A stretch of DNA of 64,000 bases, taken from Planctomycetota bacterium (GTDB lineage: Bacteria; Planctomycetota; UBA1135; UBA2386). Each line of letters opens with the position of its first letter. Within the stretch, counting starts at the first letter, position 1. The stretch is taken from contig JAHBXX010000029.1 of the NCBI GenBank assembly GCA_019636245.1, positions 1 to 64,000 of the forward strand, written 5' to 3'. Shown piece by piece: positions 304 to 6,940 of the stretch. The notes below the pieces were generated by a model. It had not been told where the DNA came from, searched no databases, and saw only the letters and a list, made by a program, of their open reading frames with translations. The position numbers were made by a program, and so were the translations under genes.

Positions 304-3300
304 TCAGCGGCACAGCGCGCGCGCGATGGCGCGGCCCGGCCGTCCGAGGTCCAGCAGCAGCGTCGTGAGCCCGGGGCACGCGCGCCACAGCTCGACGGGC
401 CGCAGGTCGGCCGGATCCGCGCGACCCTCGGCGACCGCCGCGTCGTAACGGCGGAACATCTCGCGACCTCGCCGGCGCAGCACGCGCCATCGGCGCCACC
501 ACGGGGTCGTGCGCAGCTCGGCGAGCAGGTCGATCTGGTGCGCGGCGAGGCGCACGCCGCGGTGGGCGTCGAGCGGCATCTCGCAGAGTGCGCGCGCCGC
601 GTCGAACCGGCCGGCCGCGAGTTCCGCGTCGGCGAGGAAGCGGCGATGCCACCAGAACGAGTGGTCGTGCGGCACGCGTTCGAGCGCGTGGCGGCAGACG
701 CGGACCATGTCGTCGAACCGCCGCAGCGTCAGCAGCGCGTCGGCGAGGTTCGCCAGCATCCAGCCCTGCACGTCCGGGCGCCGCCAGTCGGCGCCGAACA
801 GCCGCACGATCTCGCGCGATCCCGCCTCGTCCTTCGGCAGCGCGAACAGGTAGTCGCCCATCGCGCCGGTGTCGCGCACGGGGCCGCGCACGTGCTCGCG
901 GACCCAGCTCGACGTCCCCGGCGCCCCGGAGCGCTGCCGCACGTCGGCCAGCACGGCCGCGGCGAGCACGTCGCCGCGGTCCGGCCCGGCGGCCGCGTGC
1001 AGCGCCGTGAGACCGCTCCAGAACGAAGCGAAGTCGCCGCGACCCGCCAGGATCCGCAGGTGGTTGCGCGCGACCGGACCGGTCGGATCCGCACCTGCGG
1101 CGAGTGCCTTCACGGTCTCGTCGTGTGCGGCGCGGTCGTGGCGTCGAAGCAGCGCGTCGACTTCGGCCAGACTGGTGCCGTCGGCCTCCGGGTCGCCGAG
1201 CAGCCGCGCGAACGCCGAGCGCGCGAGGTCGCGGCGGCGCTGGCGGGCCGCCGCCTTCGCGACGAAGACCGCGCGCCGGAACGGCAGCGACGCCGGATCC
1301 GCGTGGTCGGGGAGGAGGTCCCAGATGCGCTGCGGCCGGCCCTGCTCGAGCGCCAGTTCGCACAGCGTATCGCGCGCCCAGTGGTAGCCGGGATCGAGCT
1401 CGAGCGCCCGCTCGAGCGCGTGCACCGCGGCCTCCCGGTCGCCGCGGCGCCGGAACGCGGTCGACGCGTAGGCGAACAGCACCGCGTCGTCGCGCAGCGC
1501 CGACGGCGGCTTGCCGTGCAGATCGAGCACGTCGGCGTGCCGGCCCTCCTCCTCGCACCATTCGAGGTAGCGCAGCCAGCCCTCGCGGAAGTCGGCGTGG
1601 CGCGCCAGCAGGGCGCGGAGTTGCTGCCGCGCCTCGACGATGCGGCCGGACGTGCGCTCGATCTCCGCGCGCTGCAGGAGGAGCCTCGGCTCGTCGCCGA
1701 GCAGCGCACGGCCTTCGTCGATGGCGGCCCGCGCCTCGTCGAAGCGCTTGAGTTCGACGAGCGCGCCGACCAGCCGGTCTCGCAGCGCGCCGAGGCGCGG
1801 CGACAGCGCGAGACCCCGCCGCAGCGCCGCGACGCGCTCGTCGTGCCGGACCAGCGCGGCGAGCACGTCCGCGTGCAGGTCGTGCCCGGCCGGCCAGCGT
1901 GGATTGGCGGCGACGAGCTGCTCGGCCACCGCGAGCGCCTCGCCGTGCCGGTCCAGTTCGACGAGCCAGCGGGCCCGCGTGCGGAACGCCCAGACGTAGC
2001 CGCGGTCGAGTTCGCAGGCACGCGCGACGGATGCCAGCGCGCGGTCGCGCGCGCCGAGCCGCCACGCCGCGTCGGCGACCATGCCGTGCAGCACCGCGTA
2101 ACCGGGCACACGCGCGATACCGCGTTCGAAGACGGCCATCGCCTTCTGCAGCTGGCCCTCGCCATCGAGCGACTCGCCGAGTTCGACGTAGGCCTGCGCG
2201 CACGTCGGATCGCGCTCGAGCAGTTGCTCGAGGACCTTGCGCTCCTCGGCGCGGCGATTGCCTGCGCGCAGGCACGCGGCGTGGCGCAGCCGGTGGCCCG
2301 TGAGCCACGGTTGCCGTTCGACGAGTGCCGCCGCGAGCGGCAGCGCCGCGGCCGGCGCCAGCGCGAGTTCGAACTCGCAGCGAGCGACGGCTGCCGCGGG
2401 GCTGCTCGGGAAGTCGCGCTCGAGGCGGTCCAGGAACGCGCGGAACTCGTCGGGCGGAACCGCGCGCGCGACGTCGCGGAGCGTGTCGAGGGTCAGCGGC
2501 TCCGGCGGCACGGGCCGGGCCGCGACGAACTCCATGGCTGCGCGCACGTCCGCGGCGGCCTGCGCCGGGTCGGGGGCCCAATCGACCAGCCGGCGCAGCG
2601 CCGTGCCGTTCTCGGGCGACAGCTCGAACGCGCGGCGGGCGGCGGCGCGGGCCGCTGCGACGTCGCCGGCGGCGTGTTCGCAGGCCGCGACGTCGGCCCA
2701 CAGCGCGCTGGACTCGGGCAGCGACTGCTGCAGTTCGGTCAGCAGCGGACGGGCGGCCGGCAGGTCGCCGGTGTACAGCAGGTGACGGGCGAGCCGGCCG
2801 CGCAGCCAGTGTTCGTGCGGATGCTCCGCGACGAGCCGCCGCAGCAGCGCCCGTTCGCGGCCGCGGTCCTCCACGCGTTCGTAGAACTCGGCGACCGCGA
2901 CCATCAGCGGCGGGCTCTCGCCGTGTTCCGCGACGATCGCATCCGCGGCGGCGAGTGCTGTCGCTGCGCCCTCGTGCTCGAGCAGGTGTTCGAGGCGGAG
3001 GCGGGAAGCGACGGCGTGCCACGGGTCGATGCGCACGCACTCGTCGAGCGCCGCCAGCGCAGCCGCGTGGTCGCCGCGCGAGCGCGCTGCCGCGTGCCGC
3101 GACATCGCGCGGGCGACCGGATGCCAGCCCGGGGCATCGAGCAACTCCAGAGCCCGGGCGTGCTCGTGCTGCCCGAGCAGCAGATCGAACAGCTGCTGCC
3201 GCTCGGCGGCGCCGTCGTTGCGCTGCAGCGCCGCGCTCAGCACGGCGATCGCCTCGCCCGGCCGGTGCAGCGTCGCGAGCGACTGCGCGAGCGTCGCCGC

Positions 3301-5331
3301 CGGGGCGGGCGACTTGCCGCCGAGCCGGTCGCACCGCTCCCGCAGGAACTCGAGCCCCGCTGCGGCCCTCCCGAGGTCGTGCAACGCCCAGAAGTACGAC
3401 GAGGCGAGCCACTCGTCGTGCGGAGCCATCGCGGTGGCGATCCGGAACACGTCGGCCGCCTCTTCGCGCCGGTTCTCGTCCCACGACATCGCGGCGCAGC
3501 GATGCCAGGACCGCGCGTCGCGACCCAGGTGGCGCAACGCGCGCCGCATGGTCCTGATCGCGGCGGGGCGCAGCCGCGCGTCGCCGCGCCACTGGTCGGC
3601 CAGCAGGCGGCGCAGGAACGGCGACGGCGAGCGTGGGGCCCACTGCTCCAGCAGCTGCCGCGCTTCCTGCCAGCGGTTCTGGTTCTGCAGTTCGATCGCG
3701 TAGTGGTACTGCCAGTACGGATCGTCGGGCGCCGCCGCGTGCGCCTCGCGCCAGAGTTCGAGCAGGCGCCGCCGATCGCCGCGTTCGCCGGACACGCGGA
3801 CTTCGACGTCGAAGCGCAACGGCGACCGCGGCAGCGCGAGCAGTGCGGCGATGCGGCGGTCCGCGTCGGCGTGGCGGTGCGCACGCCAGTCGATCTGCAC
3901 GTGCAGCCACTCCATCGTCGCCTCCTCGAGCGGCAGCGGCGGCGCCGGGTGTGCGGCGGCGACCTCGCGCGGCAACAGCAGCGCGCATTCGCCGCCGCGC
4001 TTCGTGAGCCCTTCGAGCCAGGACGTCGGGACCTCGCGGCGGAAGTTGCCGGTCGAGTCGCGCAGCAGGAAGGTGTCGAGCACCCGGTCGTGGCCGATCA
4101 CGGCCTGCCGGTGCCCCGACGTCTCGAACCGGGTCGTGACCGCGAACGGGAGTCCGAGGTCGAGCAGCGTGCGGGCCACCTCGGCGTCGAACTGGAAGAA
4201 CCTGATCTCGAGCCCGCGTTCGCGCGCCCACGCCAGTTCGTCGTGGCTCGCGGTGCCGTCGTAGGTGATCTGCGCGGCGATCTCGCGCTGCTCGACGTGC
4301 ACGCCGAACGTGCGCAGCAGCGCGGACATCGTCGCCGGGGAGCAGGTCATGTGGTCCTGGCGCACGAACGGCACCTGGAGCACCGTGCGGTGGCGCGGCC
4401 TCGGTCCCGGCACCGCCAGGTGTTCGCGCAGCCGCCGTGCGTGGTCGGCGCCGGCGGGGCCGGCGGCCTCCGCGTGCACGAGCGCAGCCGCGTCGTCGCC
4501 GAGCTCGCGGCACGTGCGCACGAGCGCGATCCGCCACACGATGCGTGCGCGTCGTTCGTGCACCGGCTGCTGCAGCAGCGAGGTCCAGACGTCGCGCGCG
4601 GTCCGCGGGTCGCCGGCCTCGAGGCAGCGGCTCGCGAACGTGCCTTCGAGGTGCGGGCTCTGCATCGTGCCGCGCAGGGCCGCGATGCGCTCGTCTGCCT
4701 CCGGCGCGTCGATCTCGTGCAGCAGCCAGCACTCCTGCAGGCGCGGCAGGGGCGCTTCGGGCGCACTCGCGATCGCCGCGCGGCAGGCCGCCAGCGCCTC
4801 GGCAGTGCGGTCCGCCAGCTGCAGCGCCCAGGCGGCCTCGACTTCCGTGCGCATGCGGTCCGGGAAGCGCGCGCGGGCCTCGTCGATCAGGCCGAACGCG
4901 GTGGGATGGTCGTGCAGTTCGGAGTGCACGCGCACGCGGGCGAGCAGCCAGGCCAGCTCCTCGTCGCCGTCGGCCGGCCGCGGCACGGTGCCGCGCTGGG
5001 CCGACCAGGCGTCGAACAGCCGGCCGGCGCGCAACAGGTCGAGCACGTGCACGGTGTGCGCGACGAGGCGCCCGCCGTGGCGGCGCAGGATCGTGCGCCC
5101 GAGCCACCGACGGCGCGTGTCGAGCCCGAGCCGCAGCGAGGTCTCGTGCAGCCACAGCAGGTCCGGCAGTTCGCCGCGCGCCATGAGCTCGGGCAGCAGC
5201 GGCTGGCAACGCAGCCACGCGTCGAGCCACTGGCCGCGCGACGCGGCGGACAGGGACTCGGTTGGCAGGGACGGGTTCGTCACGGTCGGCCGCGGGTTCG
5301 TCGGCGAAACGTAGCGTTGCCGGCGGGCCAC
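304..5331 (-). CDS. Giant TPR-repeat protein with embedded C39-like peptidase domain
   Basis: This 1675-residue protein is almost entirely helical tetratricopeptide-type repeats, rich in A/L/R/E with many repeated 'P..A.A...L....' units. Around residues 313-445 it is interrupted by a papain-fold domain like peptidase C39 (the bacteriocin-leader peptidase family). The visible candidate triad is Cys330 in HMTCSP, His407 in SGHRQ and an Asp in LLRDS about 20 residues later. No signal peptide or membrane segment is obvious, so it may be cytoplasmic, or the true start may lie elsewhere. The start chosen is the most upstream in-frame ATG before the divergent radical SAM gene; a start about 20 codons later is possible. 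Substrate unknown. TPR scaffolds with C39-like domains are known in planctomycetes and myxobacteria; the role here is inferred only from domains. Confidence 0.85.
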   Translation of the reverse strand: MARRQRYVSPTNPRPTVTNPSLPTESLSAASRGQWLDAWLRCQPLLPELMARGELPDLLWLHETSLRLGLDTRRRWLGRTILRRHGGRLVAHTVHVLDLLRAGRLFDAWSAQRGTVPRPADGDEELAWLLARVRVHSELHDHPTAFGLIDEARARFPDRMRTEVEAAWALQLADRTAEALAACRAAIASAPEAPLPRLQECWLLHEIDAPEADERIAALRGTMQSPHLEGTFASRCLEAGDPRTARDVWTSLLQQPVHERRARIVWRIALVRTCRELGDDAAALVHAEAAGPAGADHARRLREHLAVPGPRPRHRTVLQVPFVRQDHMTCSPATMSALLRTFGVHVEQREIAAQITYDGTASHDELAWARERGLEIRFFQFDAEVARTLLDLGLPFAVTTRFETSGHRQAVIGHDRVLDTFLLRDSTGNFRREVPTSWLEGLTKRGGECALLLPREVAAAHPAPPLPLEEATMEWLHVQIDWRAHRHADADRRIAALLALPRSPLRFDVEVRVSGERGDRRRLLELWREAHAAAPDDPYWQYHYAIELQNQNRWQEARQLLEQWAPRSPSPFLRRLLADQWRGDARLRPAAIRTMRRALRHLGRDARSWHRCAAMSWDENRREEAADVFRIATAMAPHDEWLASSYFWALHDLGRAAAGLEFLRERCDRLGGKSPAPAATLAQSLATLHRPGEAIAVLSAALQRNDGAAERQQLFDLLLGQHEHARALELLDAPGWHPVARAMSRHAAARSRGDHAAALAALDECVRIDPWHAVASRLRLEHLLEHEGAATALAAADAIVAEHGESPPLMVAVAEFYERVEDRGRERALLRRLVAEHPHEHWLRGRLARHLLYTGDLPAARPLLTELQQSLPESSALWADVAACEHAAGDVAAARAAARRAFELSPENGTALRRLVDWAPDPAQAAADVRAAMEFVAARPVPPEPLTLDTLRDVARAVPPDEFRAFLDRLERDFPSSPAAAVARCEFELALAPAAALPLAAALVERQPWLTGHRLRHAACLRAGNRRAEERKVLEQLLERDPTCAQAYVELGESLDGEGQLQKAMAVFERGIARVPGYAVLHGMVADAAWRLGARDRALASVARACELDRGYVWAFRTRARWLVELDRHGEALAVAEQLVAANPRWPAGHDLHADVLAALVRHDERVAALRRGLALSPRLGALRDRLVGALVELKRFDEARAAIDEGRALLGDEPRLLLQRAEIERTSGRIVEARQQLRALLARHADFREGWLRYLEWCEEEGRHADVLDLHGKPPSALRDDAVLFAYASTAFRRRGDREAAVHALERALELDPGYHWARDTLCELALEQGRPQRIWDLLPDHADPASLPFRRAVFVAKAAARQRRRDLARSAFARLLGDPEADGTSLAEVDALLRRHDRAAHDETVKALAAGADPTGPVARNHLRILAGRGDFASFWSGLTALHAAAGPDRGDVLAAAVLADVRQRSGAPGTSSWVREHVRGPVRDTGAMGDYLFALPKDEAGSREIVRLFGADWRRPDVQGWMLANLADALLTLRRFDDMVRVCRHALERVPHDHSFWWHRRFLADAELAAGRFDAARALCEMPLDAHRGVRLAAHQIDLLAELRTTPWWRRWRVLRRRGREMFRRYDAAVAEGRADPADLRPVELWRACPGLTTLLLDLGRPGRAIARALCR

Positions 5332-5372: not shown

Positions 5373-5378
5373 CATGAT
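5373..5378 (+). promoter_or_regulatory. -10-like CATGAT, 6 nt before the radical SAM start
   Basis: The hexamer differs from TATGAT by one base and lies exactly 6 nt before the ATG at 5385. A transcript from it would start at or next to the start codon. It fits the pattern seen before several genes in this window. No clear -35 element. Confidence 0.35.
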
Positions 5379-5384
5379 GGCCGC

Positions 5385-6200
5385 ATGCCCGAGATCGTGC
5401 TCGCGACGCTGAACGCGAAGTGGATCCACGCCTCGTTCGGCCTGCGGTGCCTGCGCGCGAACCTCGCCGAGCTGCGCGAGCGCAGCTCGCTCCTCGAGTT
5501 CGAGATCGCGCAGCGGCCCGCCGACGTCGCCGAGGCGATCCTCGCGGCCGGGCCGCGCATCGTCGGGCTCGGCGTCTACGTCTGGAACGCGGGGCCGTCG
5601 CTGCAGGTCGTGCGCGTGCTCAAGCGCGTGCGACCCGACGTCTGCATCGTGCTCGGCGGCCCCGAGGTCAGCCACGAGACCGAAGCGCAGCCGATCTGCG
5701 CGCTCGCGGACCACGTCGTGCGCGGCGAGGCCGACCTCGCGTTCGCGGACCTGTGCCGTCGCGTGCTAGCCGGCGAACCCGGTGTCCCGCGGGTCCTCGA
5801 TGCGCCGCTGCCGCACTTCGCGCAGCTGCGCCAGCCGTACGCGGAGTACACGGACGAAGACGTCGCACACCGGATCGTCTACGTCGAGAGCTCGCGCGGC
5901 TGCCCGTTCACGTGCGAGTTCTGCCTGTCGGCGCTCGACGTGCCCGTGCGCAAGGCGGAACAGGCGCCGTTCCTGGCCGAGATGCAGCGCCTGCTCGACC
6001 GCGGCGTGCGGCACTTCAAGTTCGTCGACCGCACGTTCAACCTCGGCATCGCGGAGGCGGCCGCGATCCTGCGCTTCTTCCGCGAACGCTGGCGGCCGGG
6101 CCTGTTCGTGCACTTCGAGCTGATCCCCGACCGCCTGCCGGAGCTGCTGCGAGTGAGGTGGGCAGCGGGCGCGCGGACTTCTGCGAGCATGGGGAGGTGA
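5385..6200 (+). pseudogene. 3'-truncated B12-binding-type radical SAM protein
   Basis: Residues 1-140 form a B12-binding-type Rossmann domain (opening LATLNAKWIHASFGLR, as in the B12-binding/DUF4080 radical SAM group). The [4Fe-4S]-binding motif CPFTCEFC (CX3CX2C) is at residues 173-180, followed by the start of the radical SAM barrel. Family similarity stops near base 6150, after FELIPDRLPELLR. The last 15 or so residues read out of a mobile-element remnant into a stop at 6200. About half the usual length, including the rest of the barrel and the C-terminal domain, is missing, so the product is very unlikely to be functional. The upstream promoter and start look intact, so the loss may be recent. 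Confidence 0.8.
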
Positions 6201-6940
6201 CGGATCGCTGTGTGGCGCAGCTGGTGGCGGCGATCCGGGTGCGGGTGGTGCGGTATCTGCGGCGGCTGGGCAAGTGGACGGACGATGGCGAAGGTGACGT
6301 AGCGGATGGTGACACCGACCTGCTGCAGGAGCTGGGCGCGGCAGCGGTGCAGGGCCGCACGGCGCTGGGCGAACGGGCCGGCGAACGCGACGTGCGCGTG
6401 GGCCGCGGCAGCCGCAGCGAGCCGTTCGTGAAGGGTCCGCTGTGTGCGGACGTGGACGGCTTCTCGCTGCATGCGGCGGTGTGGGTGGCGGCGCGGGATC
6501 GGGAGCGGCTGGAGAAGCTGTGCCGTTATGCGGGCCGGCCGGCGATCGCGGAGTCGCGGCTGCGGCTGCTGCCGGATGGGCGGGTGGCGTACTCGCTGAA
6601 GAAGACGTGGCGGGACGGCACGAGCCACGTGGTGCTCACGCCGCAGGTGCTGATGGAACGGCTGTGCGCGCTGGTGCCGCGGCCGAAGAAGCACCTGGTG
6701 ACGTACCGCGGCGTGCTGGCACCGGCGGCGGGCTTGCGGCCGCGGGTGGTGCCGAGGATGGAGGAGGGAGAAGGGGAAGGCGTTGGCTGTCGGCACGGTG
6801 AGTGTGAGGTGCTGCACGATCCGCTCGCGGCGCAGCCGGAGGTCGTGACCCGCGACCAGCTGCATGCGCGCTTCCGCGGCCCGGCCATCCTGATCAGGGC
6901 CACGTTCCCCGGCGGCCGGGCAGTGATGCCCGGCCGCTGA
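6197..6940 (+). mobile_element. IS91-family (IS801/IS1294-like) transposase remnant
   Basis: In the frame beginning at 6197 the translation matches the C-terminal half of the Y2 (HUH-type) transposases of IS91-family elements: GRTALGERAG, then DGFSLHAAVWVAARDRERLEKLCRY, the RLLPDGRVAYSLKKTWRDGT stretch and PRPKKHLVTYRGVLAP. The N-terminal zinc finger and the catalytic HUH/tyrosine region are absent. After about 6770 family similarity fades and the usual terminal CxxC zinc motif is not found, so both ends are lost. The fragment directly abuts the truncated radical SAM gene. IS91-type elements transpose by rolling circle and often carry or fuse flanking DNA, which fits the clean junction. Confidence 0.75.
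6912..6937 (+). repeat. Perfect 11-bp inverted repeat with GTGA loop
   Basis: GCGGCCGGGCA and its exact complement are separated by GTGA, a GNRA-type tetraloop in RNA. The hairpin ends immediately before the TGA of the transposase remnant, and GAAC follows at 6939-6942. No T-tract follows, so it is not a classical terminator. It could be the terminal hairpin of the IS91-type element, whose right end is reported to sit next to GAAC or CAAG, or an ordinary transcript-end hairpin. Confidence 0.5.

Follow-up and report, generated by a model that had tools for sequence, protein, structure and literature searches.

A solitary gene for giant TPR proteins with an internal papain-like, C39-type domain in several bacterial phyla

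The window analysed here is a stretch of 64,000 nucleotides from a Planctomycetota bacterium, and near its beginning lies a gene for a very long TPR protein. The first-pass annotation had placed a papain-like domain of C39 type inside this protein, apart from any transporter, and had suggested a scaffold that captures and cuts a specific partner. The locus thus raises the question of what a C39-type domain does in the middle of a giant helical solenoid, and whether such a partner is encoded beside it.

Reading frame, predicted fold and active site

An ORF of 1675 codons, ending at nt 304, was confirmed with the length first reported for it and assigned to the minus strand, which had been left unstated (Table 1). 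Other ORFs of 1624 and 1843 aa, antisense and in other frames, overlap it; a frame-shadow artefact was discarded because the 1675-aa frame has homologues, the homologue search having covered that frame. Along the protein, about 300 aa of TPR are followed by the C39/papain-like domain and then by about 1200 aa of TPR. Residues 318-426 matched the Pfam family PF13529 (Peptidase_C39_2) with 30.1 bits (cut-off 24), with TPR families on either side. Assignment to the TPR proteins follows from TPR Pfam models above cut-off and from the helical solenoid of the predicted models. No transporter domain was found in the 1675-aa protein, where the Pfam matches above cut-off were PF13529 and TPR families and the models showed helical repeats; an NCBIfam scan of the same protein gave sub-cut-off matches alone, mostly to TPR models.

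Table 1. Features of the giant gene and its product (nucleotide positions in the window).
Feature	Position	Strand	Basis
Whole ORF, TPR - C39-like - TPR, 1675 aa, GTG start	304-5331	-	homologues of similar length
N-terminal TPR solenoid, residues 26-307	4411-5256	-	all-helical hairpins in predicted model
C39/papain-like domain, residues 311-460	3952-4401	-	PF13529; fold match to PeiR, ComA, PCAT
Gln325 codon, presumed oxyanion-hole Gln	4357-4359	-	conserved 84/84
Cys330 codon, presumed nucleophile	4342-4344	-	conserved 84/84; aligned to ComA Cys17
His407 codon	4111-4113	-	conserved 84/84; aligned to ComA His96
Asp425 codon, presumed third catalytic residue	4057-4059	-	80 Asp and 4 Glu of 84
C-terminal TPR solenoid, residues 465-1600	532-3939	-	predicted models; length nearly fixed, 88/91 frames
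C-terminal tail, residues 1601-1675	307-531	-	charge/Trp and hydrophobicity counts

The AlphaFold model of residues 26-1200, computed from 63 sequences (the window and related loci; model number = residue - 25), reached a mean pLDDT of 90.5 and a pTM of 0.88 and consisted of helical hairpins everywhere except at residues 311-460, while the model of residues 496-1675 was all helical (pLDDT 85.7, pTM 0.72). In the predicted structure, Cys330 forms the N-terminus of a helix (model 305-315), His407 lies at the beginning of a strand and Asp425 directly after the next strand (model 395-399). The structure prediction proposed as a check by the first-pass annotation was run, and it returned a papain fold that superposed by VIA-align on PeiR (8z4h; Z 17.5, rmsd 2.0 A over 135 residues), on ComA (3k8u; Z 16.7, rmsd 2.2 A over 132 residues) and on the PCAT peptidase (6mpz; Z 16.4, rmsd 2.4 A over 133 residues). 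Profile alignment paired Cys330 and His407, whose numbering proved correct, with ComA Cys17 and His96, which we take to be the catalytic residues of ComA. The role given to Gln325 is presumed from papain-like enzymes.

The catalytic set is conserved across phyla in the 84 full-length rows aligned, with Gln, Cys and His invariant; conservation peaks at residues 326-425, yet conserved positions span the whole chain. When the whole model was searched with Foldseek, the best matches were eukaryotic TPR scaffolds (IFT-A, Ski3 and the TPRs of OGT), and the top 50 held helical-repeat scaffolds only, the papain matches having come from the VIA list. As judged from the model, the likeness to IFT-A, Ski3 and OGT is a resemblance of repeats only. 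The domain itself is papain-like by its predicted fold and conserved active-site residues, and it probably cuts protein.

A family of near-constant length

With a 290-aa query (E<=1e-5), matches appeared in 45 of the 392 Planctomycetota genomes searched, a count that includes the window's genome. Among the 49 matches, 28 fell in open frames measuring 1447-2159 aa and four in apparently truncated frames; the remaining 17 mostly represent a form about 700 aa long. When 84,980 species genomes were scanned with a pattern-based method, 127 relatives emerged, and the best 80 of these were retained. In total 121 loci were examined, with 91 full-length frames and 30 that were contig-end cuts or the shorter form; the 91 frames reduce to 84 non-redundant rows, window included, because some of the 121 loci are one genome fetched twice. 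According to the record titles, the relatives come from Planctomycetota, Acidobacteriota, Verrucomicrobiota (Chthoniobacter flavus), Myxococcota (Myxococcus, Minicystis) and Pseudomonadota (Pseudomonas, Cupriavidus, Burkholderia, Caldimonas, Pelomonas), with one Acaryochloris bin and one Gemmatimonadota bin, the latter holding a 538-aa frame that is not full length. Full-length relatives thus span six phyla as labelled, titles of metagenome bins being possibly misleading. From the start of the domain to the end of the frame, 88 of the 91 full-length frames measure 1334-1474 aa. The giant TPR-C39-TPR proteins are a family and not an oddity of this genome.

Presence is patchy, the gene being missing from most genomes examined. 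A quick tree grouped the sequences by phylum (10 changes for six groups, with a minimum possible of 5 and a shuffled mean of 32.8), and inheritance is not strictly vertical. No relative was found on plasmids with the first 675 residues as query, nor in viral contigs by an alignment-based search, and a full-text search of open-licence papers brought up no such protein in the titles and opening parts of the abstracts.

In the tree the window protein joined one other sequence (L037), both on long branches, that of the window amounting to 1.82 changes per column. The window protein also lacks several residues kept in at least 80% of the family, such as the Trp at positions 51, 161 and 1491 (Ala, Arg and Met, respectively). 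Because of the long branch, the missing residues and high dN/dS values (see below), lineage-specific decay or change of the window protein is possible, though its ORF and catalytic residues are intact.

Within the C-terminal TPRs, all 84 rows share Arg666 and Pro770, and 80 of them share Pro677; these three residues may contact the peptidase domain. The second TPR-C39-TPR form, of about 700 aa, was seen in Planctomycetota (L068, L069, L070, L071, L072, L074, L075 and L076); its motif is mostly CAPNTLANVL, and it co-occurs with the giant in three genomes (G120, G151 and G215).

Constraint differs along the chain. Among the eight close pairs computed, dN/dS was lower in the C39 domain than in the C-terminal TPRs in seven (0.00-0.23 vs 0.07-0.62), the exception being L084/L085 (0.076 vs 0.067), and lower than in the N-terminal TPRs in six, with the opposite in two. 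When the window was paired with six relatives from the same family, values were 0.24-0.57 for C39, 0.61-0.94 for the N-terminal and 0.55-0.72 for the C-terminal TPRs, with C39 below the C-terminal TPRs in 6/6; for this GC-rich genome the absolute figures are untrustworthy, since the control genes beside the window's giant gave 0.16-0.33 (radical SAM gene, 3 of 10 loci with the start found) and 0.33-0.68 (regulator end, 5/5). The C39 domain thus appears mostly more constrained than the C-terminal TPRs, as would be expected if the chemistry were fixed and recognition varied. The pair formed by P. otitidis (L160) and its congener L169 gave 0.62 for the fast-diverging C-terminal TPR array and 0.23 for the constrained C39 domain.

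The ends of the protein bear on its location. None of the 91 frames had a strongly hydrophobic N-terminal stretch, the frames having been cut 310 residues before the domain, where the starts are unproven; a cytosolic location is suggested by this lack of a hydrophobic N-terminus. At the other end, eight of the 91 frames look transmembrane-like, some apparently as a hairpin, and these are from Verrucomicrobiota, Myxococcota (Minicystis and its tree neighbours), Acaryochloris and Planctomycetota. With three of the 84 frames set aside (L039 and L099, which run to a contig end, and L048, with a frameshifted-looking tail), the last 40 residues carried a net charge of at least +4 in 70 of 81 tails (6.5% of body 40-mers), and 51 of these 81 tails also had at least two Trp (2.3% of body 40-mers). 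Because most tails of the relatives are cationic and often Trp-rich, and eight ends are transmembrane-like, we propose a cytosolic peptidase tethered to the inner membrane, in which the tail would act as an inner-face membrane anchor; contact with nucleic acid or the ribosome is a possible alternative. The window's own tail shows the feature poorly: a W/R patch lies near residues 1605-1620, the last 40 residues have a net charge of +3 and one Trp, and in the Arg-rich body many stretches pass the same test. Among eight of the ~700-aa proteins inspected, none had a strongly cationic Trp tail and six tails were acidic.

A solitary gene between intact flanks

No neighbour family was common to more than 7 of the 121 loci, a second cluster of neighbours (nine loci, median 1710 aa) having been taken as shadow frames or the giant itself. 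A scan of the 140 proteins that neighbour the gene at 26 loci found no Pfam family in more than three and no defence model matched by more than two. An operon partner was dropped as a candidate, no neighbour being conserved across loci; a conserved transporter or defence island did not turn up either.

The gene was also seen to come and go alone. Within the genus of P. otitidis it is present in 4 of 18 genomes, and in 14/14 congeners without it, 89-117 bp separate the flanks; when three of these were compared with the carrier L169, the difference of about 5.2 kb was the giant gene. In the window, the flanks are the end of a regulator gene (1-285) and a B12/radical SAM gene (5374-6151). Ten genomes of the window's lineage were searched with the right flank. 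The two flanks are separated by 11 bp in G416 (a member of the window's genus), 15 bp in G434, 63 bp in G423 and 396 bp in G125, whereas in G443 and G444 they enclose the giant. For G426, G429 and G435 the stretch read did not include the left flank, and in G417 the match was in a repeat only; G423, G429, G426 and G435 carry the giant at other genomic places. Empty sites thus occur within the window's own genus and family, and may reflect either gain or loss of the gene.

The specific partner suggested by the first-pass annotation does not find support in that wording, given neighbour families at no more than 7/121 loci and a gene that comes and goes alone between intact flanks. With no shared neighbour and this lone presence or absence, any substrate must therefore be encoded elsewhere.

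Some further features of these loci were recorded. In P. otitidis a 4.1-kb block (L160:2187-6317) lies one gene upstream of the giant and is missing in 14/14 gene-minus congeners; since the other three carriers lack it too, its presence is not tied to that of the giant. The DUF4080-type B12/radical SAM gene of the window (5385-6940, plus strand) looks truncated near 6150, similarity to relatives ending at about 6151, and is followed in frame 5420-6940 by a fragment of a Y2_Tnp transposase, which we take to be IS91-type; window positions 6211-6801 are multi-copy in some relatives. The window's genome (4.64 Mb, 89 contigs) has two other PF13529 places, one of them above cut-off with its pieces summed. 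Both are small stand-alone C39-like ORFs, of 356 and 389 aa (L002 on G000:C9 and L004 on G000:C18), and the ORF adjoining the one on G000:C18 presumably resembles an N-formylglutamate amidohydrolase.

Proposed function and comparison with known systems

Our preferred reading, to which we give a probability of about one half, is that of a stand-alone cysteine peptidase of papain/C39 fold, made by a single gene, set mid-chain in some 1500 residues of TPR solenoid, cytosolic, docked by its tail and acting on a substrate encoded elsewhere. Sequence and models bear out the fold, the catalytic residues, the conserved length and layout and the lone gene; catalysis, substrate and docking are proposed. 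The protein would stay in the cytosol, its cationic Trp-rich C-terminal tail docking on the inner face of the cytoplasmic membrane, with a transmembrane segment or hairpin taking the place of the tail in some lineages. The TPR superhelix would bind an extended stretch of its substrate, the product of a gene elsewhere in the genome, and present it to Cys330, which would cleave it through the usual thiol-imidazolate mechanism.

Clan CA folds support acyl-transfer, deamidation and amide chemistries, and the domain could instead be a non-peptidase (an acyltransferase, deamidase or amidase) acting on a small molecule or a protein side chain. The top papain-like match by Z is indeed an isopeptidase, PeiR, and TPRs scaffolding an enzyme recall OGT, but the domain retains the Gln, Cys, His and Asp of C39 peptidases and we regard this reading as unlikely. 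Invariance of the catalytic residues across large divergence, with the conservation peak on the domain, weighs against a scaffold with a vestigial peptidase-like fold, an improbable reading that the whole-model structure matches, all to scaffolds, would suit. A leader peptidase that serves a secretion or bacteriocin-like system while working apart from its exporter would account for the fold, equal to that of the ComA and PCAT peptidase domains; we hold it to be very improbable, since the window's genome has no PF03412 match above cut-off and the protein has neither a transporter domain nor a shared neighbour. Small ORFs resembling double-glycine leaders numbered zero in the window, as in the reversed-sequence control, so that this test is weak.

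By analogy with the caspase-like TPR proteases, the gene might also encode a single-gene anti-phage or conflict effector, whose solenoid would sense an invader protein and whose peptidase would kill the cell or cut the invader. Such a role would fit the patchy presence of a lone gene (as in the P. otitidis genus) and a TPR array whose evolution mostly outpaces that of the catalytic domain. Against it stand a single and weak PADLOC match of the protein (PrimPol, E 0.018, within the TPRs), the scarcity of defence models among the neighbours, the absence of relatives from the viral contigs and plasmids searched, and a fixed length with end-to-end conservation across phyla that would be unlike most sensors; we find this reading unlikely as well. 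Assignment to a known defence system in PADLOC was dropped, the PrimPol match being weak and defence neighbours showing no enrichment at the 26 loci.

A protein of about 1660 residues with near-constant length and an invariant active site, found from Planctomycetota to Pseudomonas yet in a minority of the genomes examined, makes a clean target. Its substrate should be directly findable, because there is one gene with no partners in sight, the hosts include named ones (Pseudomonas otitidis, Myxococcus, Cupriavidus gilardii and Chthoniobacter flavus), and gene-minus congeners offer the empty site.

As to known families, the curated PF13529 cut-off was reached by the window protein and by four more (three giants and one ~700-aa form; 33.8-47 bits); PF13529 is a domain family, and its model does not extend to placement within a conserved, giant TPR solenoid. 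The ~700-aa Planctomycetota proteins share the N-terminal region of about 300 aa and the C39 motifs, and the single one that was scanned matched TPR families and PF13529; they differ from the giants in their short C-terminal part. With the C39 domains of ABC exporters (ComA and PCAT) the fold (2.2-2.4 A) and the Cys/His pair are shared, whereas the giant has no transporter, its domain is internal and PF03412 scored 12.2 bits against a cut-off of 22; an exporter-type leader peptidase was discarded on the sub-cut-off PF03412 score and the lack of a transporter fusion. Members of the PA2778 family likewise join a C39-type domain to TPR-like repeats. Similarity to this family (NF033920) is weak, with 51.3 bits for the window protein and 53.9-63.9 for four relatives; membership was dropped, as all five proteins scanned missed the cut-off of 150 bits. 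P. otitidis and P. indica do have matches that exceed it, but these sit in short frames of their own, of 285 and 357 aa, encoded in addition to the giant.

Separase and TPR-CHAT are also peptidases attached to a long helical solenoid. Their peptidases are caspase-like, of clan CD, while the domain of the giant superposes on papain-like C39 peptidases, so that the likeness is one of analogy only. Along this analogy, and with more doubt than belief, one may picture the giants as previously undescribed, cross-phylum "solenoid-caged" proteases, in which a TPR superhelix of fixed length, docked at the inner membrane by its C-terminus and bearing the papain-like peptidase mid-chain, would deliver a regulated cut to a core-genome or invader substrate with no dedicated partner gene, as a bacterial, papain-fold counterpart of separase in the way it works.
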